Shown piece after piece: positions 1 through 34,298 of a stretch of 34,298 nt of DNA; the first letter of the stretch is position 1; each line of letters begins with the position of its first letter. This DNA comes from Bacteroidota bacterium (GTDB lineage Bacteria > Bacteroidota > Bacteroidia > UKL13-3). The notes under the pieces were generated by a model. That model made no database searches. It worked only from the letters and a program-made list of their open reading frames with translations, and was not told where the DNA came from. The position numbers and the translations under genes were made by a program. Location of the stretch: NCBI GenBank assembly GCA_030699355.1, contig JAUYMZ010000461.1:1-34298 (forward strand), in the 5' to 3' direction.

Positions 1-2
1 CA

Positions 3-260
3 AACAAAGAAAAAATCACTTGTTTTTATTTTGAGGCATTCGACGAAAAATGGAAAGATGCCAAAAACCCAATGGGTTCAGAAAACCATTTTGGATTATT
101 TACCATTGACGGAAAAGCTAAATATGCCTTGTGGAAAAGGGTAGATGAAGGCCTATTTAAGCAGCTTAGCAGAGAGGGCAAACCCATTGAAAAAACTTAC
201 AGTGGCAGTAAAGAAGATTTGCTCAAAACTGTGGCCTTACCTAAACATGTAAAAAATTAA
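3..260 (+). CDS. C-terminal fragment of a GH17-type protein (5' truncated by the window edge)
   Basis: The frame is open from nt 3: NKEKITCFYFEAFDEKWKDAKNPMGSENHFGLFTIDGKAKYALW. This matches the FFFEAFDENWKGSSDPMEPEKHWGVF end of the GH17 at 5067-5987. The listed ATG at 72 is internal. Confidence 0.75.
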   Translation, partial: NKEKITCFYFEAFDEKWKDAKNPMGSENHFGLFTIDGKAKYALWKRVDEGLFKQLSREGKPIEKTYSGSKEDLLKTVALPKHVKN

Positions 261-1769
261 ATGAGCATGAATATCAAACAGCAATTATGTAAAAACAAAT
301 CCCTATCAATGGCCTTGATTTGCTTGTTTTTTATTCAGTGTTCACAAGATAAAAAAACAACTATGGATGTATATGAAACCTCAGAAAATGGAAATGCACT
401 TACCTTACTAAAAGAGTTTCAAGCAGCTGATAAATCACTTACCATAAACCTTAATCCCGAGGAAACCTTTCAAAAAATTACCGGAATTGGCGGGTCGTTC
501 ACGGAAGCCTCTGCGTCTTTATTAAATAGATTAGGTTCAGCCAATAGAAAAAAAATCTTAGAGGCCTATTTTAGCCAAGAAGGCGCTAATTATTCCTTAA
601 CCAGGACACATATAGCCTCTTGCGATTTTTCGCTTAGCAATTACACTTATGCCAAGGTTGAAAATGATGTTGCAATGAATCATTTTAGCATTGAGGACGA
701 TAAAAACGACTTGATTCCAATGATTCTGGAGGCCAAAAAAATATCTAAAGATGGCTTTCATATCATTGCTTCTCCGTGGTCGGCCCCACCTTGGATGAAA
801 GATAACAAAAGTTTTGTGGGTGGAAAATTATTACCCCAATTTAATGATGCCTTTGCTTTGTACTTTTCTAAATACTTAACTGCTTATAAAAAAGAAGGCA
901 TTGATATTTGGGGAATTACCGTAATTAATGAGCCACATGGAAATGGAAATAATTGGGAAAGCACTTTGTTTTCGCCAAAAGAAATGACAGATTTCGTGCA
1001 AGATTATTTAGGACCGAAATTGGAAAAAGATGGCTGGGACCATGTAAAAATATTGGGCTACGATCAAAACAGAGCTGGCTTAAAAGAATGGGTAGATGAA
1101 ATGTATCGGGATGAAAAATCATCTAAATATTTTGCCGGTACAGCCATACATTGGTATGAAAGCACCTACGATTATTTCCCAGATGCCCTGCAATACGCGC
1201 ACAAAAAAGCACCAAACAAATTTCTCATTGAAACGGAGGGTTGTGTGGATTCTGAGATACCAAAATGGCGGGATGATAAGTGGTATTGGCAAAAAGAAGC
1301 CACCGATTGGGGCTGGGATTGGGCAAGCGAAAAAGACAAACACCTGCACCCTAAATATGCTCCTGTAAATAGATATGCAACAGATATCATTGGTTGTTTA
1401 AATAATTATGTTGATGGTTGGATAGATTGGAACATGGTTTTAGATACACAAGGCGGTCCCAACTGGTTTAAAAATTGGTGTGTTGCACCTGTGATTGTTA
1501 ACCCCGATAAAGATGAAGTGTATTTTACACCCTTGTATTATGTAATGGCACATTTTAGCAAGTTTATGAGGCCCGGTGCAACTAGAATTGGCTGCCAAAT
1601 AAACCACAAAGAAGTTATGGCTACTGCCGTTCAAAATCCGGATGGAAGCATTGCCCTTGCGGTGTTTAATCCTACGGAAGAGCAATACAATATAAATATC
1701 AACCTAAACAATCAAACCCAAACGCTTAGCATAGATTCGAAAGCATTACAAACTATAATACTCAACTAA
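261..1769 (+). CDS. GH30 family glycoside hydrolase, lipoprotein (beta-1,6-glucanase/glucosylceramidase-like)
   Basis: Lipobox-like N-terminus (LICLFFIQC). GH30 hallmarks: GIGGSFTEASASLLNRL, SLTRTHIASCDFSLSNY, SPWSAPPWMK, TVINEPHG (acid/base E), FLIETEGC (nucleophile E). Confidence 0.88.
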   Translation: MSMNIKQQLCKNKSLSMALICLFFIQCSQDKKTTMDVYETSENGNALTLLKEFQAADKSLTINLNPEETFQKITGIGGSFTEASASLLNRLGSANRKKILEAYFSQEGANYSLTRTHIASCDFSLSNYTYAKVENDVAMNHFSIEDDKNDLIPMILEAKKISKDGFHIIASPWSAPPWMKDNKSFVGGKLLPQFNDAFALYFSKYLTAYKKEGIDIWGITVINEPHGNGNNWESTLFSPKEMTDFVQDYLGPKLEKDGWDHVKILGYDQNRAGLKEWVDEMYRDEKSSKYFAGTAIHWYESTYDYFPDALQYAHKKAPNKFLIETEGCVDSEIPKWRDDKWYWQKEATDWGWDWASEKDKHLHPKYAPVNRYATDIIGCLNNYVDGWIDWNMVLDTQGGPNWFKNWCVAPVIVNPDKDEVYFTPLYYVMAHFSKFMRPGATRIGCQINHKEVMATAVQNPDGSIALAVFNPTEEQYNININLNNQTQTLSIDSKALQTIILN

Positions 1770-1781
1770 CAAACAAAACCT

Positions 1782-4121
1782 ATGTCTAATCAACCACTCG
1801 TTAAAAAAGTTCCCAGAACCCAAAAAATTGCCTTTGGATTGGGAATGCTTGCCAACCAAATGTTTCCGGCTGCATTGGGTATTTTTATCGTAATACTCAT
1901 AGAAGGCTTGGGATTTCCGGGTTGGATGTTGGGCATTATCTATTTTGTACCCAAACTGTTTGATGCCATTACCGACCCAATTATGGGTTTTATTACAGAT
2001 AACACCAAATCTAAATGGGGACGAAGAAGACATTATGTTCTGATTGGTGCGGTTATTATGGGATTGTCTTTTGCTTCTATGTGGCAATTGTATGCTTCGA
2101 ACAGTGTTAACTACAATTTTTATTATTTTTTAGTTTGGTCATTAGTATTCTTTTTAGGTCTCACCATTTTTAGTGTGCCTTACGTGGCCATGGGTTATGA
2201 GATGAGTGATGATTTTCATGAACGTACCGAGATTATGGCAACAGCTCAGCTTATAGGTCAGCTAGCCTGGGTAATTGCACCTTGGTTTTGGGTAATTATG
2301 TACGACCCAAGGTTTTTTGAATCAACAGAAATTGCCACTAGAACATTGGCTGTTTATGTGGCCATTGGTTGCTCTATTCTAGCCGCTGTACCCGCATTTT
2401 TTATAAGCAGTAAATCTACTTTAAACGAAAATTACGAGCCCTTAACTTTTAGAAATATCAGTTCAAGTTTTGACCAAATTATTGAAGGATTTAGAGATGC
2501 GTTAAAAATAGCGCCTTTTAGAAAATTATGTATTGCTACCTTTCTAATCTTTAATGCATTTAACACGGTGGCGGGGTTTTCATTTTTTATTATAAAGTAC
2601 TTTATATTCAGCGAAAACCCTAATAATTTTGGCGTGTGGCCAACCCTCTTTGGAAGCATTGGTGCTATCATAACAACGCTCATTGTAATTCCAATTGTAT
2701 CGCGTATGTCGAAAGCAATGGGAAAAAAGAAAGCCTTTGTTATTTCTCAATTCATATCCATTATTGGCTATGTACTCTTTTGGTTTTTGTTTGTTCCAGG
2801 CAAGCCCTATCTCTTTATTTTTGCGTTACCTTTTTTCTCTTTTGGTATTGGTAGTTTGTTTACTTTAATGATGTCTATGACATCAGATGTGATTGATATT
2901 GACGAGTTGAATACAGGCAAGCGAAGAGAAGGAATTTTTGGTGCTATTTATTGGTGGATGGTAAAGTTTGGTTTGGCCATTGCGGGTTTATTAAGCGGGT
3001 TAATTTTATCCTTTGTTGCCTTTAATTCGGGTGCTGCCTCTCAAACAGCACAATCTATGTTTGAATTAAGATTATTTTTCTCTGGAATCCCCATTTTAGG
3101 AACCTTATTAGCCATTTGGGTGATGAGAGATTATGATGTTACTGAGGAGAAAGCAAGAGAAATAAGTGCTGAATTGGGTAAAAGAAAGAATAAACCTAGT
3201 TTACCCTACTTGCAAGGCAAATTACATTCGCTTTTACACCATACAAATTTAAACATCATCAACGGAATTGATTATAGCCAGAAAAGTGAAGCCGAAATAG
3301 AAACAAAGTTTGCACAAACATTTCATACGGGTTTACATGGTTTGTGTTTTAGTGCCTATGGAGAAGGGCAGAAAGTGGGAGATATTTTATCGAAAGAACA
3401 AATTAATAGAAGGTTAGATATCATTGCTCCGCATACGCAATGGATAAGAACTTTTTCGTGCACAGAAGGAAATGAATGGATACCAGAAATTGCCCATCAA
3501 AAAGGAATCAAAACAGTGGTTGGGGCTTGGATCAGCCAGGATAAAGAGCGAAATGAAAGGGAAATAAATGCTTTAATTAAATTGGCAAATGCAGGTTTGG
3601 TAGCGGTAGCAGCGGTAGGTAATGAAGTATTGTTGAGAGAAGAGATTAGCGAGGAAGAATTAATTGAGTATATAAAAAGGGTAAAAACCGCCATTCCAAA
3701 TACCGTTGAAGTGGGATATGTAGATGCCTATTACCAGTTTATTGACAGACCCAAATTGGTAGATAGCTGCGATTTAATTCTCTGTAATTTCTATCCTTTT
3801 TGGGAAGGTATTGCAATTGATTATTCTATGAGTTACCTCAACAATATGTTTGAACTAACAAAAACAGTTAGTAAGCATAAAAAAATTATTATTACCGAAA
3901 CAGGATGGCCAAGTTTGGGTGAAACCATTGAAAGTGCAGTGCCATCAAAAATAAATGCCATGAAATATTTTATTGTTGCGCAGGAATGGGCAAAAAATAA
4001 TAATATTGAGATGTTTCATTTCTCTTCTTTCGACGAATCGTGGAAAGTAGTGCAAGAAGGAAAATTAGGAAGCTTTTGGGGTTTATGGGATCAAAACGAA
4101 AAATTTAAGTTTACAAAATAA
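1782..4121 (+). CDS. MFS (GPH/MelB-like) sugar symporter fused to a C-terminal GH17 glucanase domain
   Basis: aa 1-~460 is a polytopic transporter with DAITDPIMGFITDNTKSKWGRRRHYV (GPH/MelB motif). aa ~490-779 is a GH17 domain with AAVGNEV (acid/base) and IITETGWPS (nucleophile). One uninterrupted reading frame. Confidence 0.85.
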   Translation: MSNQPLVKKVPRTQKIAFGLGMLANQMFPAALGIFIVILIEGLGFPGWMLGIIYFVPKLFDAITDPIMGFITDNTKSKWGRRRHYVLIGAVIMGLSFASMWQLYASNSVNYNFYYFLVWSLVFFLGLTIFSVPYVAMGYEMSDDFHERTEIMATAQLIGQLAWVIAPWFWVIMYDPRFFESTEIATRTLAVYVAIGCSILAAVPAFFISSKSTLNENYEPLTFRNISSSFDQIIEGFRDALKIAPFRKLCIATFLIFNAFNTVAGFSFFIIKYFIFSENPNNFGVWPTLFGSIGAIITTLIVIPIVSRMSKAMGKKKAFVISQFISIIGYVLFWFLFVPGKPYLFIFALPFFSFGIGSLFTLMMSMTSDVIDIDELNTGKRREGIFGAIYWWMVKFGLAIAGLLSGLILSFVAFNSGAASQTAQSMFELRLFFSGIPILGTLLAIWVMRDYDVTEEKAREISAELGKRKNKPSLPYLQGKLHSLLHHTNLNIINGIDYSQKSEAEIETKFAQTFHTGLHGLCFSAYGEGQKVGDILSKEQINRRLDIIAPHTQWIRTFSCTEGNEWIPEIAHQKGIKTVVGAWISQDKERNEREINALIKLANAGLVAVAAVGNEVLLREEISEEELIEYIKRVKTAIPNTVEVGYVDAYYQFIDRPKLVDSCDLILCNFYPFWEGIAIDYSMSYLNNMFELTKTVSKHKKIIITETGWPSLGETIESAVPSKINAMKYFIVAQEWAKNNNIEMFHFSSFDESWKVVQEGKLGSFWGLWDQNEKFKFTK

Positions 4122-4131
4122 TAAATAGCGT

Positions 4132-5067
4132 ATGTCGTACAGAGAAGGCCATTTTTTTAATCCAGAAAATAAGGAAAATTATATTCACCATCAGCAGGAA
4201 GGTGCACAAGAAATGCCGTGGATTAACTATGCTGAACTTACAGCGGATGATTTAAAAACCATGTGGCATAAAACCCTTCAAATGGGCATGCATGGCATTT
4301 GTTTTAGTATCTATGAAGATGGGCAAAAACCAGGTTCCATTATAACAGAAGCGCAAGTTGAAAGACGAATTGAAATATTAAAGCCGTATACCAAATGGGT
4401 TCGCTCATTTTCTTGTATAGAAGGAAATGAACATGTTCCTAGCATAGCCAAAAAACATGGCATGAAAACGCTTGTGGGTGCTTGGCTAGGGGATGATTTA
4501 GCATTAAATGAAAAAGAAATTGAAAGTTTAATTGCTATGGCAAAAGAGGGTTTAGTTGATGTGGCTGCTGTAGGCAATGAAGTAATGTACAGGAAAGATT
4601 TAACGGAGGAGCAATTAATAGCATACATACAAAGGGTAAAAGAGGCTATACCGCATATTCCAGTGGGATATGTAGATGCGTATTATGAGTTTTCGCACCG
4701 ACCAAGAATTACAGAGATATGTGATGTTATTTTAACTAATTGTTATCCGTATTGGGAAGGCTGCCCCATAGAATATTCGTTTGAACACATGAGGAGCATG
4801 TTTGAATCTGCTAAACATGCCGGACAAGGAAAACGTGTAATTATTACAGAAACCGGTTGGCCTAGCGAAGGTGGTGCTTTTAAAGGCTCTATTGCTAACC
4901 AAGAAAATGCCATGCGCTATTTTATAGATTGCCAAAATTGGTGCCATGCTAACGGAATAGAGAGTTTCTACTTCGCTTCTTTCGACGAGTCGTGGAAGGT
5001 TGGTCCGGAAGGTGATGTGGGTGCGTATTGGGGACTTTGGGATAAACACGAAAAACTAAAATATTAA
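4132..5067 (+). CDS. GH17 family beta-1,3-glucanase-like protein, no evident signal peptide
   Basis: GLVDVAAVGNEVMYR, GYVDAYYEF, VIITETGWPSEGG, FASFDESWKVGPEGDVGAYWGLWD. Collinear with the fused GH17 domain just upstream. N-terminus MSYREGHFFNPENKENYIHHQ is hydrophilic. Confidence 0.85.
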   Translation: MSYREGHFFNPENKENYIHHQQEGAQEMPWINYAELTADDLKTMWHKTLQMGMHGICFSIYEDGQKPGSIITEAQVERRIEILKPYTKWVRSFSCIEGNEHVPSIAKKHGMKTLVGAWLGDDLALNEKEIESLIAMAKEGLVDVAAVGNEVMYRKDLTEEQLIAYIQRVKEAIPHIPVGYVDAYYEFSHRPRITEICDVILTNCYPYWEGCPIEYSFEHMRSMFESAKHAGQGKRVIITETGWPSEGGAFKGSIANQENAMRYFIDCQNWCHANGIESFYFASFDESWKVGPEGDVGAYWGLWDKHEKLKY

Positions 5068-5987
5068 TGAGTAATTTTTTTCAGAAATTTAATATACCAT
5101 TCGATAAAGCGATTTGTTATTCTGGTTTTAGAGATGGGCAACAACCAGGCGGAATTGTTCCTTCTTACGAAGAGATTAAAGAAGATTTGATGCTGCTTAA
5201 ACCTCATTGGAAATACCTAAGATTATATGATTGCGATGAACATGCTGCTAGGGTAATGGAGGTTATTAAGAAAGAAAAACTAGACTTTAAATTAATGCTT
5301 GGTGCCTACATAGTTGCCGAAATGAATAATTATGGTTGTCCGTGGGGTGGCGGTATTTATGAAGAAGAACAGTTAGCAGAAAATCACAAGGCAAATAATG
5401 AAAAAATTGAAAAGCTAATAGATTGGTCGAACCAATACTCCGATATTATTTTCTGTGTATCGCTGGGGAATGAAGCTTGTGTAGATTGGACAGATCACTT
5501 TGTTCCGGTAGATAGGGTTATAGAATTTGCCAAGAAGGTGAAGCAAGGTATTAAGCAACCCATTACCTTTTGCGAGAATTATGTTCCTTGGTTAAATTAC
5601 CTAAAGCCACTGGTAGAACATATTGATTTTATTTCGATACACACCTACCCTGTTTGGGAATACAAACACATCCACGAATCGGTAGACTACTCCATATCAA
5701 ATTATGAATTAGTGGCGCAACTATACCCATATGTTCCGGTAGTTATTACCGAAGCAGGTTGGGCAACCAATTCGCACGGGAGAGGAATAAACAGCGAACA
5801 CGTAAACGAAGAAAACCAAAAAGTTTATTACGAAGATTTAATGGAGTGGACTACCAAGCATCAAGTTTTAACCTTCTTTTTTGAAGCCTTTGATGAAAAT
5901 TGGAAAGGCTCATCAGACCCCATGGAACCCGAAAAACATTGGGGCGTTTTTAAAGCTGATAGAAGTCCTAAGTTGGTGTTTAATTGA
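5067..5987 (+). CDS. GH17 family glycoside hydrolase (divergent subtype), no evident signal peptide
   Basis: CVSLGNEACVDW, ISIHTYPVWEY, VVITEAGWATNSHGRG, FFFEAFDENWKGSSDP. Overlaps the previous stop by 1 nt (TAATG). Confidence 0.83.
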   Translation: MSNFFQKFNIPFDKAICYSGFRDGQQPGGIVPSYEEIKEDLMLLKPHWKYLRLYDCDEHAARVMEVIKKEKLDFKLMLGAYIVAEMNNYGCPWGGGIYEEEQLAENHKANNEKIEKLIDWSNQYSDIIFCVSLGNEACVDWTDHFVPVDRVIEFAKKVKQGIKQPITFCENYVPWLNYLKPLVEHIDFISIHTYPVWEYKHIHESVDYSISNYELVAQLYPYVPVVITEAGWATNSHGRGINSEHVNEENQKVYYEDLMEWTTKHQVLTFFFEAFDENWKGSSDPMEPEKHWGVFKADRSPKLVFN

Positions 5988-5991
5988 TAGA

Positions 5992-6717
5992 TTAAAGCTG
6001 AAAAGAAAAGCCTTCTTTCTCTAAAGCGCGGTAACTTTTTTCGTCGAATTGAAAGAGCTTAGCGGGTCGGTGAGAAACATTTTCTTTTACTTCATTCAGT
6101 GGCTTTAAAATATTCATCTCTAGGATTTTTTTCCTGAAATTAGATTTATCAAACTTATATCCCAAAAGTGCTTCGTACAATAATTGGAGCTCTAAAAGGG
6201 TAAACTTAGGTGGCAGCAATTCAAAACCTGTAGGCTTATGCCTCACCTCATTTTTTAATGTTTCTATTCCCTTTTGTAAAATATTGTGGTGGTCGAATGC
6301 CAACTCTGGCAAATCTGTAATATTAAACCATTGGGCAGATTTGGCCCACGAAGAAGCTATCGGATTATAATCTATGCTATTTACCAAAGAAAAATAACCC
6401 ACAGTTACCACACGGCCAATTGGATGCCTATCTACACTTCCAAAAGTAAAAAACTGCTTCATGTAAATATTTTTTAAGCCAGTTAGTTTTTCTAACACAT
6501 TATTGGCGGCATCTCGTAAATTTTGTTCGGGTTCCACTAAATCTCCAATTAAAGCCCAATGTCCTTTAAAAGGCTCAACATCTCTTTGAACCAATAAAAC
6601 CTTTATTTCGCCCTCATGATATCCAAATATCACACAATCAACGGATAAGCCAAATACAAAATACGCATCTATCGGGAATTTATAATCTGATATGTAATAT
6701 TTACTTGGAATTTCCAT
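5992..6717 (-). CDS. NrtR/AraR-like transcriptional regulator (Nudix-fold effector domain + winged HTH)
   Basis: N-terminal Nudix fold with degenerate box GDLVEPEQNLRDAANNVLEKLTGL. C-terminal wHTH region LPPKFTLLELQLLYEALLGYKFDKSNFRKKILEMNIL.. typical of Nudix-type sugar regulators. Confidence 0.8.
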   Translation of the reverse strand: MEIPSKYYISDYKFPIDAYFVFGLSVDCVIFGYHEGEIKVLLVQRDVEPFKGHWALIGDLVEPEQNLRDAANNVLEKLTGLKNIYMKQFFTFGSVDRHPIGRVVTVGYFSLVNSIDYNPIASSWAKSAQWFNITDLPELAFDHHNILQKGIETLKNEVRHKPTGFELLPPKFTLLELQLLYEALLGYKFDKSNFRKKILEMNILKPLNEVKENVSHRPAKLFQFDEKSYRALEKEGFSFQL

Positions 6718-26468: not shown

Positions 26469-27332
26469 TTACTGACAACCAAATAAAAATTTCGTTTTTT
26501 TATCTGTTTGGTCAGCAACGGAGGAGTAATTTTTCTTTCTTACAGTTATTTCAATATCTGTTAAGGTATACCCATTAGGCACAGATAAAAAACTATTAGG
26601 AATCATTGTTATTTTAAACCTACCATCTGCTAAGCGTTTCATTTGAAGTTTAGGATTATCAGTTACCCTAAAAAACTTATTGGGTTCAATGGTTAAGATA
26701 GCTCCTGAAGTATCTTTGGCCGTGGCAACCATATGAATATAAACATCACCCTCGCTCAGGTTTTTCATACTAGCTTTTGGCTCATTGGGATTATCATAAA
26801 TTAGCGTAGTAATTTGGTCTCCAAACATGGTTCTAGGAATTGCGTACAAAATACCTCTTTCAACCGAAGGAGGATCAATGGTTAAATTAAGATCCTCTGT
26901 TTTAACATCTGGGTCTCCAAACCCTCCACCATCTTTCGGTTTCACTAGGAAACTTATTCCTTGCGCATAAATTACAGATGCCTCAACGCCATAAAATTCG
27001 GTTGGTATCATTTCATAATACCAAACATTAGGCCCTAAAGATTCATCTTTGGTCATCATTAACCTATCATTACTATTTTTCCATGGCTTATCACCAGTGC
27101 CATTTAATAACGAATCAACCCTAGCCTCAACCGGCTTCCAGGTCCAAATATAAAAAGGCCCAGCAGGATTAGACTTCATGGCTTCAGCAGCGGCATCAGT
27201 TGTTTTGTTTATATCACAATAGATGCGAATTGGTTTCGTAACATCTGGTTTTTTAGGTTCAACCCAAGCCACTTGAGCAAACGATTTATTAAAGGCGAAT
27301 AAGATTAATATGGCAGCTAATATATTTTTCAT
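26469..27332 (-). CDS. Secreted PUL accessory protein (possibly DUF4961-like), last gene of the starch PUL
   Basis: Signal peptide MKNILAAILILFAFNKSFAQ. FYIWTWKPVE..., LGPNVWYYEMIPTEFYG, FLVKPKDGGGFGDPDVKTEDLNL. Position after SusD and a small lipoprotein. Confidence 0.6.
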   Translation of the reverse strand: MKNILAAILILFAFNKSFAQVAWVEPKKPDVTKPIRIYCDINKTTDAAAEAMKSNPAGPFYIWTWKPVEARVDSLLNGTGDKPWKNSNDRLMMTKDESLGPNVWYYEMIPTEFYGVEASVIYAQGISFLVKPKDGGGFGDPDVKTEDLNLTIDPPSVERGILYAIPRTMFGDQITTLIYDNPNEPKASMKNLSEGDVYIHMVATAKDTSGAILTIEPNKFFRVTDNPKLQMKRLADGRFKITMIPNSFLSVPNGYTLTDIEITVRKKNYSSVADQTDKKTKFLFGCQ

Positions 27333-27334
27333 AA

Positions 27335-27853
27335 TTAATTAATTTTAAAGAATGAAACACTGTAAGAAAAAGCCTTTTCCGCTTCACAATTAACAGAACT
27401 AACAAAGTTAATTTGCGGAGCAGGTGAAAGTAGATTTTTTCCAATAATTACCTCGCTTGCTGGATTTCCATTTAGGTCTTTAAGAATAATTTTGGAAGGG
27501 TATCTATTGTCGTCGAAACTCCATTTACCATTGCTTAATTCGAAGAGATTAAGAACCAGATTTGTGGTATCAACAGTAAAGGAACTATCAGTTGTATTGA
27601 ATATAATATTGGGAACTTGCCCAGATTCTGAGGTAAGAAAATCGGCAATATTCATAGATTCTTTAACAAGTGACTTTTCATCTATCTGCAAGGCATTGGT
27701 CATTCTCCAAGTACCATTTAATGCAGCAGCAATTTTTTCTGGCGAAGACACAGGTGGTGCAACTTCCTTACTATCATCATATTTCTTTTTACAAGCAGAA
27801 ATAGAAATACCGATTAATACGATTGCTATTCCAAATAAATTTATTTTTTTCAT
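27335..27853 (-). CDS. Small lipoprotein, lipocalin-like/DUF5004-like PUL accessory protein
   Basis: Lipobox ISISAC. ALNGTWRMTNALQIDEKS...GKWSFDDNRYPSKIILKD, lipocalin-like pattern. Confidence 0.6.
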   Translation of the reverse strand: MKKINLFGIAIVLIGISISACKKKYDDSKEVAPPVSSPEKIAAALNGTWRMTNALQIDEKSLVKESMNIADFLTSESGQVPNIIFNTTDSSFTVDTTNLVLNLFELSNGKWSFDDNRYPSKIILKDLNGNPASEVIIGKNLLSPAPQINFVSSVNCEAEKAFSYSVSFFKIN

Positions 27854-27864
27854 ATTGATAATTA

Positions 27865-29274
27865 TTAATTACATCCTCCTTCTGGATTAAATATAAAGCC
27901 TTGAACAGTACCAGCTGATGCTGGAAATTGTAGCACCATACCTGGGCAATTCCATGGTGCATTTCGAATGGTAGTAGAAGGTGAATGAAAAGCCCCCATT
28001 CTTTTTAACTGCACTATACGATCCCCTTCGAGATGCATCTCTAATCTTCTTTGTAGCCTTACCTCATCAATTAAAGCTTGCCCGCTAAGGGCTGATAATG
28101 AAACATACTTGGCACTTGTTTCACCATAAGCTCTTTTAACAATAAGCCCTAAATCCAAAATGGCAGAACCCGGATTTGATTGTAAAGCAAATATTTCTGA
28201 GCGCATTAAAAGCATGTCGGTTAAGGTTAAATAAGGTGTTGCAAAATTATTGAGATTAAATTTAGTAGAAACTTTAATTTCATTTACTTGCCCAGCGTTT
28301 ATTAAACCAGCAAATTTACTCCTTCTATCGGTAGTATCAGACGATAATAAATTATACAATTCGGCAGATATACCTATTGTTGGTATATTGATGTCGTTTC
28401 TATAACTACCTTTAAATCCTGAACCCCTTGTATTGATATCATAAGCCGAATTGGTGGTTACAAAACCAAAGATTATCTCACTTTCTACCTCAGCCCTATT
28501 AAATCTGTTTAAGCTGTCGCTTAAGGCATATCCTGCGCCAATTACTTCATTTAATAAAGGCAAAGCAGCGTCATAATTTCCCATTGTAAAATATACTTTA
28601 GCAAGTAATGCCTTTGCGGCATTTCTATTCGCAAATACACCATTGCTAATTGGTAAAAGGGAAATAGCTTTTTGCAAATCAGAAACAATCAGACTATAAT
28701 TACTTGCAACACTGCTTCTCAAAACTACCTCATTTTTAGCCCTAGTTCTTTCAATAATGCCCAAATGACTATTATCAGGAGTAAAGCCAGCAGGTTGTGC
28801 CCAAAGTTTCACCGTTTCAAAATGGCAAAGTGCACGTAAAAAGGCTGCTTCACCTTGAAGGCGCTCTTTTTCACCCTGCGCAAAAGCTACCTGATCGTAA
28901 TATAAATCCATTACATTTACCCTATAAATTGTGAAATAAGGCTGTGAATAAGCAGAATTAGTGGCTCCGTTAAATTGGGCAACACTTCTGTTAAAAATAG
29001 CTGTTGTATTTCCATCGTTATTAAGTGGACTAGTTACATCATCAGCAAGTAAGTCTGAGATAACTTGAAACTGACCATTCATCATATTTGCGCAAGCATC
29101 ATAACATGAGTTTAGTAATTTCTGCATATCTTCTGCAGATTTAATTGCTTCAGCCGGATCCAAACCAAAAGATGGATCAGGATTTACATCCAGGCTTTTT
29201 TCGCAAGACGAAAAGGAGACAACGATTAATAGACTAATCGTACCCAATAAAATTTTATGTATTAATTTTTTCAT
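27865..29274 (-). CDS. susD: SusD/RagB family nutrient-binding outer-membrane lipoprotein
   Basis: Lipobox VSFSSC. GEAAFLRALCHFETVKLWAQPAGFTPDN, ALLAKVYFTMGNYDAALPLLNEVI, TDMLLMRSEIFAL, LQRRLEMHLEGDRIVQLKRMG. Confidence 0.93.
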   Translation of the reverse strand: MKKLIHKILLGTISLLIVVSFSSCEKSLDVNPDPSFGLDPAEAIKSAEDMQKLLNSCYDACANMMNGQFQVISDLLADDVTSPLNNDGNTTAIFNRSVAQFNGATNSAYSQPYFTIYRVNVMDLYYDQVAFAQGEKERLQGEAAFLRALCHFETVKLWAQPAGFTPDNSHLGIIERTRAKNEVVLRSSVASNYSLIVSDLQKAISLLPISNGVFANRNAAKALLAKVYFTMGNYDAALPLLNEVIGAGYALSDSLNRFNRAEVESEIIFGFVTTNSAYDINTRGSGFKGSYRNDINIPTIGISAELYNLLSSDTTDRRSKFAGLINAGQVNEIKVSTKFNLNNFATPYLTLTDMLLMRSEIFALQSNPGSAILDLGLIVKRAYGETSAKYVSLSALSGQALIDEVRLQRRLEMHLEGDRIVQLKRMGAFHSPSTTIRNAPWNCPGMVLQFPASAGTVQGFIFNPEGGCN

Positions 29275-29284
29275 TTTAATTCGA

Positions 29285-32200
29285 TTAGAAAGTTGCCATT
29301 ATTTGAAAATTATAAGTGCGTTCCTGAGGAGCATTTAGGTAGTATGTTCCCTGCGATTGCATATTTCTAGAAGTATTTATATTTCCTTCGCCATCTCTGG
29401 CAATTTCGGGGTCTAAACCTGGATAGCTAGTTAATACAAATAAGTTGGTACATATAAATGCAATTCTTGTACTTGACATTTTTCCTTTTTTGGCCCATTT
29501 TTCTGGCAAATTATACCCTACGGTTAAGTTTCTTAATCTTAAGAAACTCGCATCATGCAACCACATCGGCGTATTATATTGCCAATAATCTGGCAAGCCA
29601 TAAGTTGAGGGGTCTAAGGTTAAACGTGGAAATGCAGCTACATCACCTGGTTGTCTCCATCTATCAGCAATTTCTGGTCGAGAATTCCAAAAGCTCATCA
29701 CTCCTAGCTGACGTTTTGCAGACGCGTCATAAATATTACCACCAATCTGATAAACGAATAATAAACTCAAATCCCAGTTCTTGTATTTAAAATTATTAGT
29801 AAACCCGCCTACAGCTTTAGGAAGAATACTTCCTACAGGAACTCTATTATTGGCACTCCAGGTAAAAGTTTGATTTCCTTCTTTATCAAGATACACTGGT
29901 CTACCAGTTGCTGGGTCTACATGTGAAAACCTAACCAAATAGTATGTGCCTACTGGACTGCCTACTACAACCCTTGTGTCATTTGTTCCACCACTAACCG
30001 CTTCCTCGGTATATGCTCCTGTGCTAGTTATTTCGTTGAAATTTCTGGCTATATTGGCCATAATACTCCAAGAAAACTTAGACTTCCTAATTAGGTTTGC
30101 CCTTAAACTAAATTCAGCTCCATAATTTCTAATAGCTCCAACATTGTCATAATAATTGCCAAAACCAACGGATGGATCAAGGTTTAAATTCATAATAACA
30201 TCAGTAGTTCTTTTATCATAAAAATCAAAAGTTCCTGAAATTTTGTTGTTAAAAAATGCAAAGTCTAAACCTGTATTAAACGTCCAAGATGTTTCCCATC
30301 TTAAATTAGGATTCTCAAGTTGTGTGGGGTACAAAGTTGGATTTCCATTATAAGTAATAGCTGAGTTGGCCTGAAAAAATCCAAATCGTGCATTCGGGTC
30401 AAAATCTGAATTTCCAGATCTACCATATGAGGCACGAAGCTTTAACAAAGAAAGCTGTTTAAAATTCTCTAAAAATCGCTCTTCGTTCATTAACCAACCT
30501 GCAGAAACAGAAGGGAAAAAACCATATCTACTATTATCCCCAAATCTGGAAGACCCATCATAACTAAATGCAAAATTTAAAAAATATTTATACTTGCTAT
30601 TGAAATTAATCCTTCCAAAAAATCGTTCAAATTTCCATTCACTAGGCACTATATAGAGTTTTAAATTATTGTCTGTTTTTCTTCCATTGGTAAGAAAACC
30701 GTTAGCATTTCGCTCAACAATATTAAATCCTTGTGTTAATGCTTGTTGACGTTCAAATCCTCCCACAAAATCTAATTTATTCAATTTATTAATTTTATAT
30801 TCATAAGATAATTGAGCCAAATAATTGTAATTATTGGTATACCTTAAATTCTTCACGCCTATAGAAGCTGTGTCTGAACCCATTGTTCTGGTTAGCTCTT
30901 GTGGCAAAAATTGGTCGTCTGATATGTTCTGATAGTCGTAATTACCCTGCACCCTAGCTTTCAAATTATCGGTAATAGCATAATCAAAAGCCATATTTGC
31001 TATCGTTCTTTGTTCATTGGTTACCCATTTAAAAAGATCTCTCATCATCACAGGATTGGTTCTGAACCCAGCATCTGAATTATTGAATAAAAAATAAGTG
31101 CCATCCGGATTACGAACGGGATAAAATGGCAATGCAGACGACATCAACAATCCGTATCCCCCGCTCCAACCACTGTTTACTCTTATATTATCTGCATGTG
31201 TAAAAGAGGTACCTACCTGCATCTTCAATTTTTTTGAAATTTGATAATCCAAGTTAATTCTTCCTGAAATTTTATCATATGAATTTCCTTTGATGAAAGT
31301 TTCATTTTTATTATAAGATATACTTGAATATAAAGATAATTTATCCCACCCTTTCGAAAGAGTTAAATCGTGCTGATGTTTCACGCCAACTTGCGTTAGC
31401 TCATTATACCAATCTGTATTATTATTTCTAGCCTCATCCCAAGTCATGTTATTAATACCAAATTTATTAAAATCTGGTTTACCCGTGTTACCATCATTAA
31501 TCCATGCTTCTTCCATCAGATTAAGCAACTCATCTCGGCCTACCAAGCGGGGCCTTGCAGAAGGAGTTGAGAAGCCCATTTGCGCATTATAGGTTATGCG
31601 TGTTTTTCCTTTGCCTGCGCGCTTGGTTGTTATTAAAATTACCCCGTTAGCTCCCCGAGAACCATAAATAGCAGTGGCAGCAGCATCTTTTAACACCTCT
31701 ATACTTTCAATATCATTTGGATTAATTGTAGCTAAAGGATTAAAATTAGCTCCCCCAGCATTTCCAAATGCACCATAATCTTGTGTCATTGGTATTCCAT
31801 CTATCACATAGAGTGGATCGCCACCCGCAGAAATGGAAGAAATACCCCTAATACGGACAATACTAGGCGACCCAGCCAATCCACTTCCTTGCGTAACCGA
31901 TACACCCGCTAATTTCCCTTGAAGCGCTTGCTCAAAACTTTGAACGGGCAAATCATTAAACTCTTTTTGTCCAATTTTTGAAATAGCAGATGTAATTTCT
32001 CTTTTGGTTTGCGTTCCATAACCAACAACCACCGCTTCATCTAAATGATTTTCGTCTACTTTTAGCGATAGGTTTAAAACTAAATTCTGACCTGCTGTTA
32101 ACTCAATGTTTTTAAATTCATTCTTCATCCCAACATACTGAAAACGCAGGCGATATTTGCCAGCACTTAAACCAGAAATAACATAATCTCCGTTTAAGTC

Positions 32201-32350
32201 GGTTTGAGCACCACTTTTAGTGCCCTCCACAATAACCGTTGCCCCAATCAAAGGCTCCGATTTACTGTCGGTTAATTTTCCTTTTATAGTTTGGGCTTGC
32301 GAACCCAAAGCCAAAAAGAAAACAAAAATTGATAGTAGAGTTGTTCTCAT
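29285..32350 (-). CDS. susC: SusC/RagA family TonB-linked outer-membrane protein
   Basis: CarboxypepD-like N-domain (KGKLTDSKSEPLIGATVIVEGTKSGAQTDLNGDYVIS). Plug (VVVGYGTQTKREITSAIS..LQGKLAGVSVTQGSGLAGSPSIVRIRGISSISAGGDPLYVIDGIPM; IESIEVLKDAAATAIYGSRGANGVILITTK). C-terminal F. Confidence 0.96.
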   Translation of the reverse strand: MRTTLLSIFVFFLALGSQAQTIKGKLTDSKSEPLIGATVIVEGTKSGAQTDLNGDYVISGLSAGKYRLRFQYVGMKNEFKNIELTAGQNLVLNLSLKVDENHLDEAVVVGYGTQTKREITSAISKIGQKEFNDLPVQSFEQALQGKLAGVSVTQGSGLAGSPSIVRIRGISSISAGGDPLYVIDGIPMTQDYGAFGNAGGANFNPLATINPNDIESIEVLKDAAATAIYGSRGANGVILITTKRAGKGKTRITYNAQMGFSTPSARPRLVGRDELLNLMEEAWINDGNTGKPDFNKFGINNMTWDEARNNNTDWYNELTQVGVKHQHDLTLSKGWDKLSLYSSISYNKNETFIKGNSYDKISGRINLDYQISKKLKMQVGTSFTHADNIRVNSGWSGGYGLLMSSALPFYPVRNPDGTYFLFNNSDAGFRTNPVMMRDLFKWVTNEQRTIANMAFDYAITDNLKARVQGNYDYQNISDDQFLPQELTRTMGSDTASIGVKNLRYTNNYNYLAQLSYEYKINKLNKLDFVGGFERQQALTQGFNIVERNANGFLTNGRKTDNNLKLYIVPSEWKFERFFGRINFNSKYKYFLNFAFSYDGSSRFGDNSRYGFFPSVSAGWLMNEERFLENFKQLSLLKLRASYGRSGNSDFDPNARFGFFQANSAITYNGNPTLYPTQLENPNLRWETSWTFNTGLDFAFFNNKISGTFDFYDKRTTDVIMNLNLDPSVGFGNYYDNVGAIRNYGAEFSLRANLIRKSKFSWSIMANIARNFNEITSTGAYTEEAVSGGTNDTRVVVGSPVGTYYLVRFSHVDPATGRPVYLDKEGNQTFTWSANNRVPVGSILPKAVGGFTNNFKYKNWDLSLLFVYQIGGNIYDASAKRQLGVMSFWNSRPEIADRWRQPGDVAAFPRLTLDPSTYGLPDYWQYNTPMWLHDASFLRLRNLTVGYNLPEKWAKKGKMSSTRIAFICTNLFVLTSYPGLDPEIARDGEGNINTSRNMQSQGTYYLNAPQERTYNFQIMATF

Positions 32351-32352
32351 AT

Positions 32353-34298
32353 TTAGTTATATAAAATTATTTTTTTTGTTACTAATCCTTTAGCTGAATT
32401 TAAAGTTAAATAATAGGTTCCTGGTGTTAATGTACCTATCCATATTTCACCCTCAACAATTGAATCTCCCTTAACTAATTTCCTTCCCATAATATCTGTT
32501 ACCTCATAACCCGTAACAGTAAATCCCGACCTAATATTTATAAATCCAGAAGTTGGATTAGGAAAAATAGTAAGTTCTGCATTTTCTTCTATTTCTTCCA
32601 ATACAGTTGAAATTTCCAAGTTGGGCTTTTCAAGTTTTACATCTGTTAACAAAACATATTTTCCAGCCTTTAACTGAACCGTATCGCTTGTACTATTAAA
32701 ATATACTGAGTCGCCCTCAAAGAAATTATACCACCAACCAGCATGATTTACCTTTCTTATTAATGGCAAAGTAGAAGTGCCAAAATTAGCAGCAACAAAT
32801 ACATTCAAAGAACTATCGTTTAATAGCATGGTTTTAACTGTACTTGTTAAATTATTCGTAATGGTTCCTGTTGCAAATACTTGATATTTAGATTTTAAAT
32901 AATTCATTGCAGAAAAAACATTGTATAACCTTTTCCTTGGGGCTTGCTTCAAATAATCCCATCTTATTGGTTTGTTGTCTAGCCTACAATTATTATTTAC
33001 CGTTCCATCCTTACAAGTATTAATACTATATGGGTATCCTAATTCGCCAAATTGCCATATCATATAAGGACCAGGCATGGCAGCCAAAATTACTGCTGCT
33101 GCCTCACAACGCTCCAAAGCTGTTAAAGTATCTCTTACATTATAATTTGGAGATGTGAACCCAAAATTTAAATTTTTATACATCAACCTTTCTTCATCAT
33201 GGCTCTCCGCATATCTTATCAAATTGGGTTCAGACCAACCTCTATGTTGCCATAAAGCTGGCCTTAAATCGGAATTATAACCCATTGTTGCCTCATTAAA
33301 TGCATGGTTTATATTCCCCCAAAACATAAACCCATAATCTGATAAAACCTTTTCTTCACTATTATCTGCAAAATGCTCTAGAATTAAATAACAATCTTGG
33401 CAGGTTGGCCTAAGCTTATCCGAAATTCTTCTCCATAAATTAATTCTACTTTGGTCGTAAGCACTCCAAGCAGATACGTCGGTTGGTGTATTACGTTGAG
33501 TAAATCCTTTAGATAAATCAAACCTATATCCATCTATTTTATACTCCTTAATCCAATATTTTACAACTGTATCCACAAAATTTTGGGTATATAAACTTTC
33601 ATGGTTAAAATCGTAACCTACGTTAAAGGGATGTTTAGCATCATCGTTGAACCAAGGATTATTTTGAGGCTTGCCTGTGTTGGTATTAAAATACATTCTT
33701 ACCATACTGCTTTGTCCAAATGAATGATTTAACACCATATCCATAATTACCGCAATTCCGTTTTGGTGACAAACATCTATGAACTCTTTTAACTTATCTT
33801 TAGTTCCATAATATTTATCTGGTGCAAAATAAAAAGCGGTGTTATAACCCCAACTTTCATTTCCTTCAAATTCGTTGAAAGGCATAAGTCCGATGGCATT
33901 TATACCAAGTCTTTTAAGATAAGAAATGGTATCAATTAAAGCTTGATAATTGTGTTTGCCAACAAAATCTCTTATCAATAATTCGTAAATAATTAAGTTA
34001 TTGGATGCTGGCTTTTTAAAATCAGTAATAAGCCAATTATAAGGTTTTTGCGCGGTTTGAAAAACGGAAACATAATGGGTAGTTTTACCTTGAGGATATG
34101 GTTTTAAATTAGGATAGGTTTCCGCATCTATAAATTTATCATTATCCCCATCTAAAAATTTATCTGCATAAGGATCTGCAACACGAAGCTGTTGTTTGTC
34201 TATCGAATATTGAAACGCATACTCTTTCCCAGGCTCTAATCCGGTAATTTGTATCCAATACCTTATTCCGTCGGGGGTCCTTTTCATTTCATAATTTG
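32353..34298 (-). CDS. GH13 alpha-amylase family protein with N-terminal E-set-like region and T9SS type A sorting domain; 5' end beyond the window
   Basis: LGINAIGLMPFNEFEGNESWGYNTAFYFAPDKYYGTK, DMVLNHSFG, DGYRFDLSKGF, LILEHFAD, ESHDEERLMY. C-terminus LTIFPNPTSGFINIRSG...LTPGTYYLTLNSAKGLVTKKIILYN. The frame stays open upstream of the listed ATG to the window edge (..NYEMKRTPDG). Confidence 0.92.
   Translation of the reverse strand, partial: NYEMKRTPDGIRYWIQITGLEPGKEYAFQYSIDKQQLRVADPYADKFLDGDNDKFIDAETYPNLKPYPQGKTTHYVSVFQTAQKPYNWLITDFKKPASNNLIIYELLIRDFVGKHNYQALIDTISYLKRLGINAIGLMPFNEFEGNESWGYNTAFYFAPDKYYGTKDKLKEFIDVCHQNGIAVIMDMVLNHSFGQSSMVRMYFNTNTGKPQNNPWFNDDAKHPFNVGYDFNHESLYTQNFVDTVVKYWIKEYKIDGYRFDLSKGFTQRNTPTDVSAWSAYDQSRINLWRRISDKLRPTCQDCYLILEHFADNSEEKVLSDYGFMFWGNINHAFNEATMGYNSDLRPALWQHRGWSEPNLIRYAESHDEERLMYKNLNFGFTSPNYNVRDTLTALERCEAAAVILAAMPGPYMIWQFGELGYPYSINTCKDGTVNNNCRLDNKPIRWDYLKQAPRKRLYNVFSAMNYLKSKYQVFATGTITNNLTSTVKTMLLNDSSLNVFVAANFGTSTLPLIRKVNHAGWWYNFFEGDSVYFNSTSDTVQLKAGKYVLLTDVKLEKPNLEISTVLEEIEENAELTIFPNPTSGFINIRSGFTVTGYEVTDIMGRKLVKGDSIVEGEIWIGTLTPGTYYLTLNSAKGLVTKKIILYN

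Follow-up and report, generated by a model that had tools for sequence, protein, structure and literature searches.

The closest described relatives of the gene considered here come from the laminarin loci of Formosa and Muricauda. In Formosa sp. Hel1_33_131, Unfried et al. (2018) described FbGH17B (FORMB_24740; AOR29491.1), a fusion of a major facilitator superfamily (MFS) transporter with a glycoside hydrolase family 17 (GH17) domain (PMC6246565). In the breakdown of laminarin by this organism a GH30 enzyme debranches the polysaccharide, GH17A chops it and FbGH17B, coming after debranching and endo-cleavage, acts as an exo-beta-1,3-glucosidase on debranched laminarin only and releases glucose; a coupling of hydrolysis to uptake was raised only as a possibility, and the fusion was called common in marine Flavobacteriia (PMC6246565). 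In Muricauda the MFS transporter has its own gene, and MlGH17B, a GH17 protein, is a cytoplasmic transglycosylase (PMC11005184, PMC13188888) that shares 53% identity with the fused domain of Formosa (PMC11005184). We found no report of MFS-GH17 fusions in the open-access literature beyond these three papers. Here we describe a further fusion, encoded at positions 1782..4121 (forward strand) of a 34,298-nucleotide stretch, the window, which is one entire contig (JAUYMZ010000461.1) of the Bacteroidota bacterium assembly GCA_030699355.1. The architecture is not new, having been published in 2018, and as the same fusion stands beside the same GH17A and GH30 in Formosa, the window protein belongs to the known FbGH17B kind. 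We put at about 0.8 the probability that it is a laminarin-utilisation fusion of this kind, which imports laminari-oligosaccharides and hydrolyses them at the exit.

The window protein shares with FbGH17B an N-terminal MFS domain of 12 transmembrane helices, a C-terminal GH17 domain, GH17A and GH30 neighbours and a laminarin locus. It differs from it in that FbGH17B comes from a marine host and has Met, in place of Leu, at the position of a tyrosine important in transglycosylases; the comparison is one of architecture, gene neighbours and that residue rather than of direct sequence identity. MlGH17B of Muricauda lutaonensis is likewise a cytoplasmic GH17 protein of a laminarin locus, with a GH30 and an MFS gene adjoining (PMC11005184, PMC13188888). 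Unlike the fusion, it is the product of a separate gene (295 amino acids) and is a transglycosylase with Tyr136. Judged by position and by this tyrosine, not by a tree, it is closer to the free GH17 gene of the window (4132-5067) than to the fused domain.

An earlier note, made from the letters of the window alone, had read 1782-4121 as a single frame joining a MelB/GPH-like transporter to a GH17 domain, and this holds. The frame runs uninterrupted from ATG to TAA over 779 residues, in which Pfam finds MFS_2 at 18-455 (E 9e-69, 232 bits; cut-off 27) and Glyco_hydro_17 at 692-777 (E 1.5e-10, 41.7 bits; cut-off 28.2). The NCBIfam gph model TIGR00792 matches at 15-467 (E 9e-57), its score of 192.7 lying below the curated cut-off of 231.35. 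When solved structures were searched by sequence, MelB and MFSD2A were among the matches of the transporter half, and the GH17 part matched the Rhizomucor beta-1,3-glucanosyltransferase 4WTP over residues 539-763 (E 1e-29). An AlphaFold model, with 19 fusions as input, has a mean predicted local distance difference test score (pLDDT) of 83 and comprises an eight-strand barrel and 12 membrane helices, the number anticipated in the note and not an odd one. Foldseek relates its transporter half to MelB (template modelling score 0.83-0.84; 0.84 to the target) and its GH17 half to 4WTP/4WTR (0.83).

From the model and the MelB alignment, the transporter domain occupies residues ~15-450 (1824..3131, +). 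It is followed by a cytoplasmic tail helix and linker at ~451-504 (3132..3293, +), where model confidence is low around 471-490; the median linker length in the family is 38 residues. The GH17 (beta/alpha)8 domain, delimited by Pfam, alignment, model and Foldseek, lies at 3294..4118 (+), with E615 (AAVGNEV; nucleotides 3624-3626) as proton donor and E706 (IITETGWP; 3897-3899) as nucleophile, roles assigned by correspondence with Glu133 and Glu223 of MlGH17B. That both catalytic glutamates are retained, as had been claimed, is confirmed by their invariance in all 19 aligned fusions. The earlier description as a ‘GH17 glucanase’ stands as regards the family, on profile, fold and glutamates; ‘glucanase’ is too loose, given that the characterised homologue is an exo-acting glucosidase confined to debranched laminarin. 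A stop or frameshift at about nucleotides 3130-3250 was looked for and none was found. Whole-length fusions occur in seven other genomes (88, 75, 73, 73, 72, 70 and 62% identity), and since relatives keep the frame whole the fusion is neither chance nor a sequencing error. An artefact of sequencing or assembly is ruled out by the intact frame in many genomes at 56-88% identity.

The fused GH17 domains, all but one, lie on one side of a branch (100/99.6) with the free paralogue opposite; in a larger GH17 tree the fused clade holds 91 fused domains. A duplication thus produced a fused type (F) and a free type (S) of cytoplasmic GH17, and most simply F was joined to the transporter once, since one fused clade implies one old fusion. 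Repeated convergent fusion as a general rule is ruled out by the single fused clade, with one exception (locus L049, genome G099). Here an S-type domain is attached at the same transporter C-terminus and is preceded by MSFREERFLNFK, the start of a free S gene. The transporter of L049 groups in the MFS tree with transporters that bear F domains, from which it follows that F was probably lost and S took over. Forcing L049 into the fused clade gave p = 0.287 in the approximately unbiased (AU) test, which is not significant; the case for a separate origin is that 0% of 200 bootstrap trees join it to that clade and that the old start region is retained. In two further genomes (G109 and G412) an F domain is carried by a transporter from a different GPH subfamily.

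It had been proposed that the GH17 domain sits on the cytoplasmic face, and the evidence for this side is now better than before. Twelve helices and a cytoplasmic N-terminus place the GH17 domain inside. In all 19 fusions the predicted inner loops and tails hold 22-30 lysines and arginines and the outer loops 1-4. An export-like hydrophobic N-terminus was found in 93% of 67 GH17A proteins, in none of 108 free type S proteins and in 1 of 33 proteins of a second free type, T; the call is a simple hydropathy measure, not SignalP, and some entries are overlapping copies of one genome. The signal-less paralogues, the exported GH17A and the L049 protein, in which a signal-less type-S domain with its former start region still visible has taken the same C-terminal position, all agree with the proposal.

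The transporter half resembles MelB, the melibiose:cation symporter of the GPH family (MFS_2), in fold, in its 12 helices and in two aspartates. D55 and D59, the cation-site aspartates of MelB, correspond in the MelB alignment to D61 and D65 of the fusion and are invariant in 115 family members. MelB differs in being without a glycoside hydrolase domain and in D19 and D124, its galactoside-binding positions, which are Q/N and S/A/G in the family. As these are not kept, a sugar other than a galactoside is to be expected. As far as sequence can indicate, the transporter half fits a cation symporter for another sugar, and from the operon we infer that laminari-oligosaccharides are the candidate natural cargo.

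The setting of the gene was thought to be one of laminarin or beta-1,3-glucan use, and the adjoining GH17A-type, GH30 and free GH17 genes bear this out. The apparent operon runs from a GH17 end through GH30 and the fusion to a pair of free GH17 genes; two of the intergenic gaps measure 12 and 10 bases, and at one junction the genes overlap. At 1..257 (+) is the 3' end of a GH17A-type gene cut by the contig end; its Pfam GH17 match on 3-257 (E 2.7e-6) is just under the cut-off in the window and above it in a genome-wide search. Relatives have a full GH17A of ~420 amino acids at this place, which in Formosa and Muricauda belongs to GH17A, an exported endo-laminarinase. The GH30 gene (261..1769, +; Pfam GH30 E 5e-77, and GH30C) encodes a beta-glucanase/beta-1,6-glucosidase-like protein, predicted to be exported and to debranch, with a lipoprotein-like N-terminus, ALICLFFIQCSQ. 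Downstream of the fusion, the type S gene (4132..5067, +; Pfam GH17 E 1e-12, and the tree) has the MlGH17B-like position, no signal peptide and the tyrosine at E+3; it is 50% identical to the fused GH17 domain. Its stop is overlapped by the start of a divergent type T gene, also without a signal peptide (5067..5987, +; Pfam GH17 E 6e-9, on a separate tree branch). The type T family has the motifs TEAGW and CYSGFREGQ, and its genes recur behind the S gene or close to it, in Balneolaceae and Burkholderiales as well; we found no relative of it that has been characterised. The convergent gene at 5992..6717 (-) encodes by Pfam a Nudix and winged-helix regulator of the NrtR/AraR type, possibly a sugar-responsive repressor.

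The fusion co-occurs repeatedly with GH17A, GH30 and GH16 across relatives. Flavobacterium filum has the same order complete through the first free GH17 gene, with a GH17A of 420 amino acids and an adjoining GH16. In the locus of a Hydrogenophaga metagenome-assembled genome (MAG) there are GH1, ATP-binding cassette (ABC) transporter genes, GH16, two free GH17 genes, the fusion, GH30 and a longer GH17 gene. A Burkholderiales beta-glucan locus (L091, 637-14003) contains the fusion together with GH1, GH16, GH30, three more GH17 genes and ABC transporter genes.

Other parts of the window hold different systems. A separate locus on the minus strand (26469-34287) has SusC-like and SusD-like genes and an alpha-amylase tagged for the type IX secretion system (T9SS). 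Its SusD-like gene is the only SusD_RagB match found in the genome, which is incomplete; the laminarin operon may therefore be without its own SusC/D pair. Between 9547 and 26219 there are very large T9SS-secreted proteins, of 3216 amino acids (laminin-G domains) and 1726 amino acids (ten cadherin domains). Genes for PorP/SprF and OmpA come after them, and the whole is probably a surface-adhesin module.

Among 396 genomes, an even sample of the phylum, 14 have both domains in one frame (11 listed as full-length, together with G099, G109 and G412), and others have MFS and GH17 genes side by side. Of the best 80 named loci in the genome collection, 76 are fused, which is not a frequency because the search query was built from fusions; many of the loci are MAGs. 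The hosts include Flavobacterium, Winogradskyella, Lacinutrix, Algoriphagus, Chryseobacterium, Phaeodactylibacter, Saprospirales, Cyclobacteriaceae, Balneolaceae and Burkholderiales, the last including two named strains, Rubrivivax pictus W35 and Rubrivivax albus ICH-3. Whether the tree is built from GH17 or from MFS domains, the Burkholderiales sequences form one clade (99 in each) nested in those of Bacteroidota. The G+C content of the checked loci is 0.61-0.72 in Burkholderiales as against 0.34-0.44 in Bacteroidota/Balneolota. The gene appears to have moved as a unit from Bacteroidota to Burkholderiales in an old transfer. A plasmid search for whole fusions gave no match covering 80% of the query. 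The fusion is common and occurs well outside marine Flavobacteriia, and is older and more widespread than the 2018 account had it.

To judge from the homologues, the exported GH30 and GH17A would act on beta-1,3-glucan outside the inner membrane, removing branches and cutting the chain. The GPH-type domain would then import laminari-oligosaccharides with a cation, as its family and the kept cation-site aspartates suggest, and the GH17 domain, on a cytoplasmic tether of ~40 residues, would cut them into glucose or shorter sugars at the exit. For this hydrolysis the activity is known in vitro from the Formosa homologue, and the cytoplasmic location is argued from the present analysis. The benefit would most likely be one of efficiency, with the enzyme locally at high concentration and the inward gradient of oligosaccharide kept steep; direct channelling is not required for it. 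The neighbouring free type-S enzyme would be a cytoplasmic paralogue, probably with complementary transglycosylation or hydrolysis. A physical or kinetic coupling of transport to cleavage is put forward as a hypothesis. In its fullest form, which we regard as rather doubtful, the GH17 domain would capture each oligosaccharide leaving the inward-open symporter as part of a coupled machine, having specialised in hydrolysis after its split from a paralogue that is a cytoplasmic transglycosylase; the gene itself would have been put together on more than one occasion and have crossed between phyla intact.

Several observations weigh against import with hydrolysis at the exit. In Polaribacter Hel1_85 (L133, 6001-8355) the MFS gene and an S-type GH17 lie in the same frame, separated by one stop codon and no spacer. 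In another genome (G019; L013, 1281-2991) the transporter is intact and is followed by GH17 remnants with stops, no other F- or S-type GH17 match being found in that genome. From these close relatives, split or decayed, it follows that the tether is not essential. The mutual arrangement of the two domains is unresolved in the model, because its predicted template modelling score (pTM) is low (0.61) and the linker is of low confidence. We found no transport assay for any member in the open-access literature. The Formosa GH17 part was assayed on laminarin in solution (PMC6246565), so its activity is independent of transport, and the fused Formosa enzyme is suspected also to transglycosylate (PMC11005184). 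It is quite possible, if short of probable, that the gene is a frozen operon fusion that serves anchoring or co-expression only, with transport and hydrolysis as independent as in the split relatives; this opposes only the coupling step and overlaps with import and hydrolysis as proposed here. The side-by-side versions in the same type of operon and the transporter retained without a working GH17 part favour it. However, the fused clade is old, mostly intact and apparently transferred between phyla as a unit, and a second lineage rebuilt the fusion from the free paralogue.

It is also conceivable that the fused domain works chiefly as a beta-1,3-glucanosyltransferase, remodelling oligosaccharides as they enter, for branching or storage, and not as a hydrolase. 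The nearest solved structure is such an enzyme, RmBgt17A of Rhizomucor miehei (4WTP/4WTR), with the same GH17 barrel, catalytic pair and Trp-Glu acceptor residues; MlGH17B, with its 53% identity to the fused domain of Formosa, has transglycosylase activity, and the Trp-Glu pair is present in 91 of 91 fused domains (Trp674 and Glu675 in the window protein, equivalent to Trp191 and Glu192 of MlGH17B). Yet the acceptor-platform tyrosine, Tyr136 of MlGH17B, is replaced in 88 of the 91 (L 56, H 13, M 13, Q 3, F 3); of 93 free paralogues, 77 retain it. With Leu at this position, the acceptor triad of the window domain is incomplete, and RmBgt17A, which has no transporter, differs in its platform Tyr102. 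Mutation of the tyrosine in RmBgt17A is cited in PMC11005184 as having abolished transglycosylation. The published Met of FbGH17B fits type F and is found in no S domain. The pattern of residues agrees with fused domains that hydrolyse and free ones that transfer; with the glucose released by the Formosa enzyme, it makes a predominantly transferring role unlikely. A periplasmic GH17 domain feeding glucose into the transporter is very improbable, as the 12 helices, charge bias and signal-less paralogues place it in the cytoplasm.

Laminarin is one of the largest algal sugar stores, and how bacteria complete its uptake is poorly understood. With importer and hydrolase joined covalently, one can ask cleanly whether uptake becomes faster when an enzyme is tethered to a symporter. 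To this the window contributes an added member, stronger evidence on the side of the membrane, natural comparisons in the split and decayed relatives, and a reach that extends to Burkholderiales.
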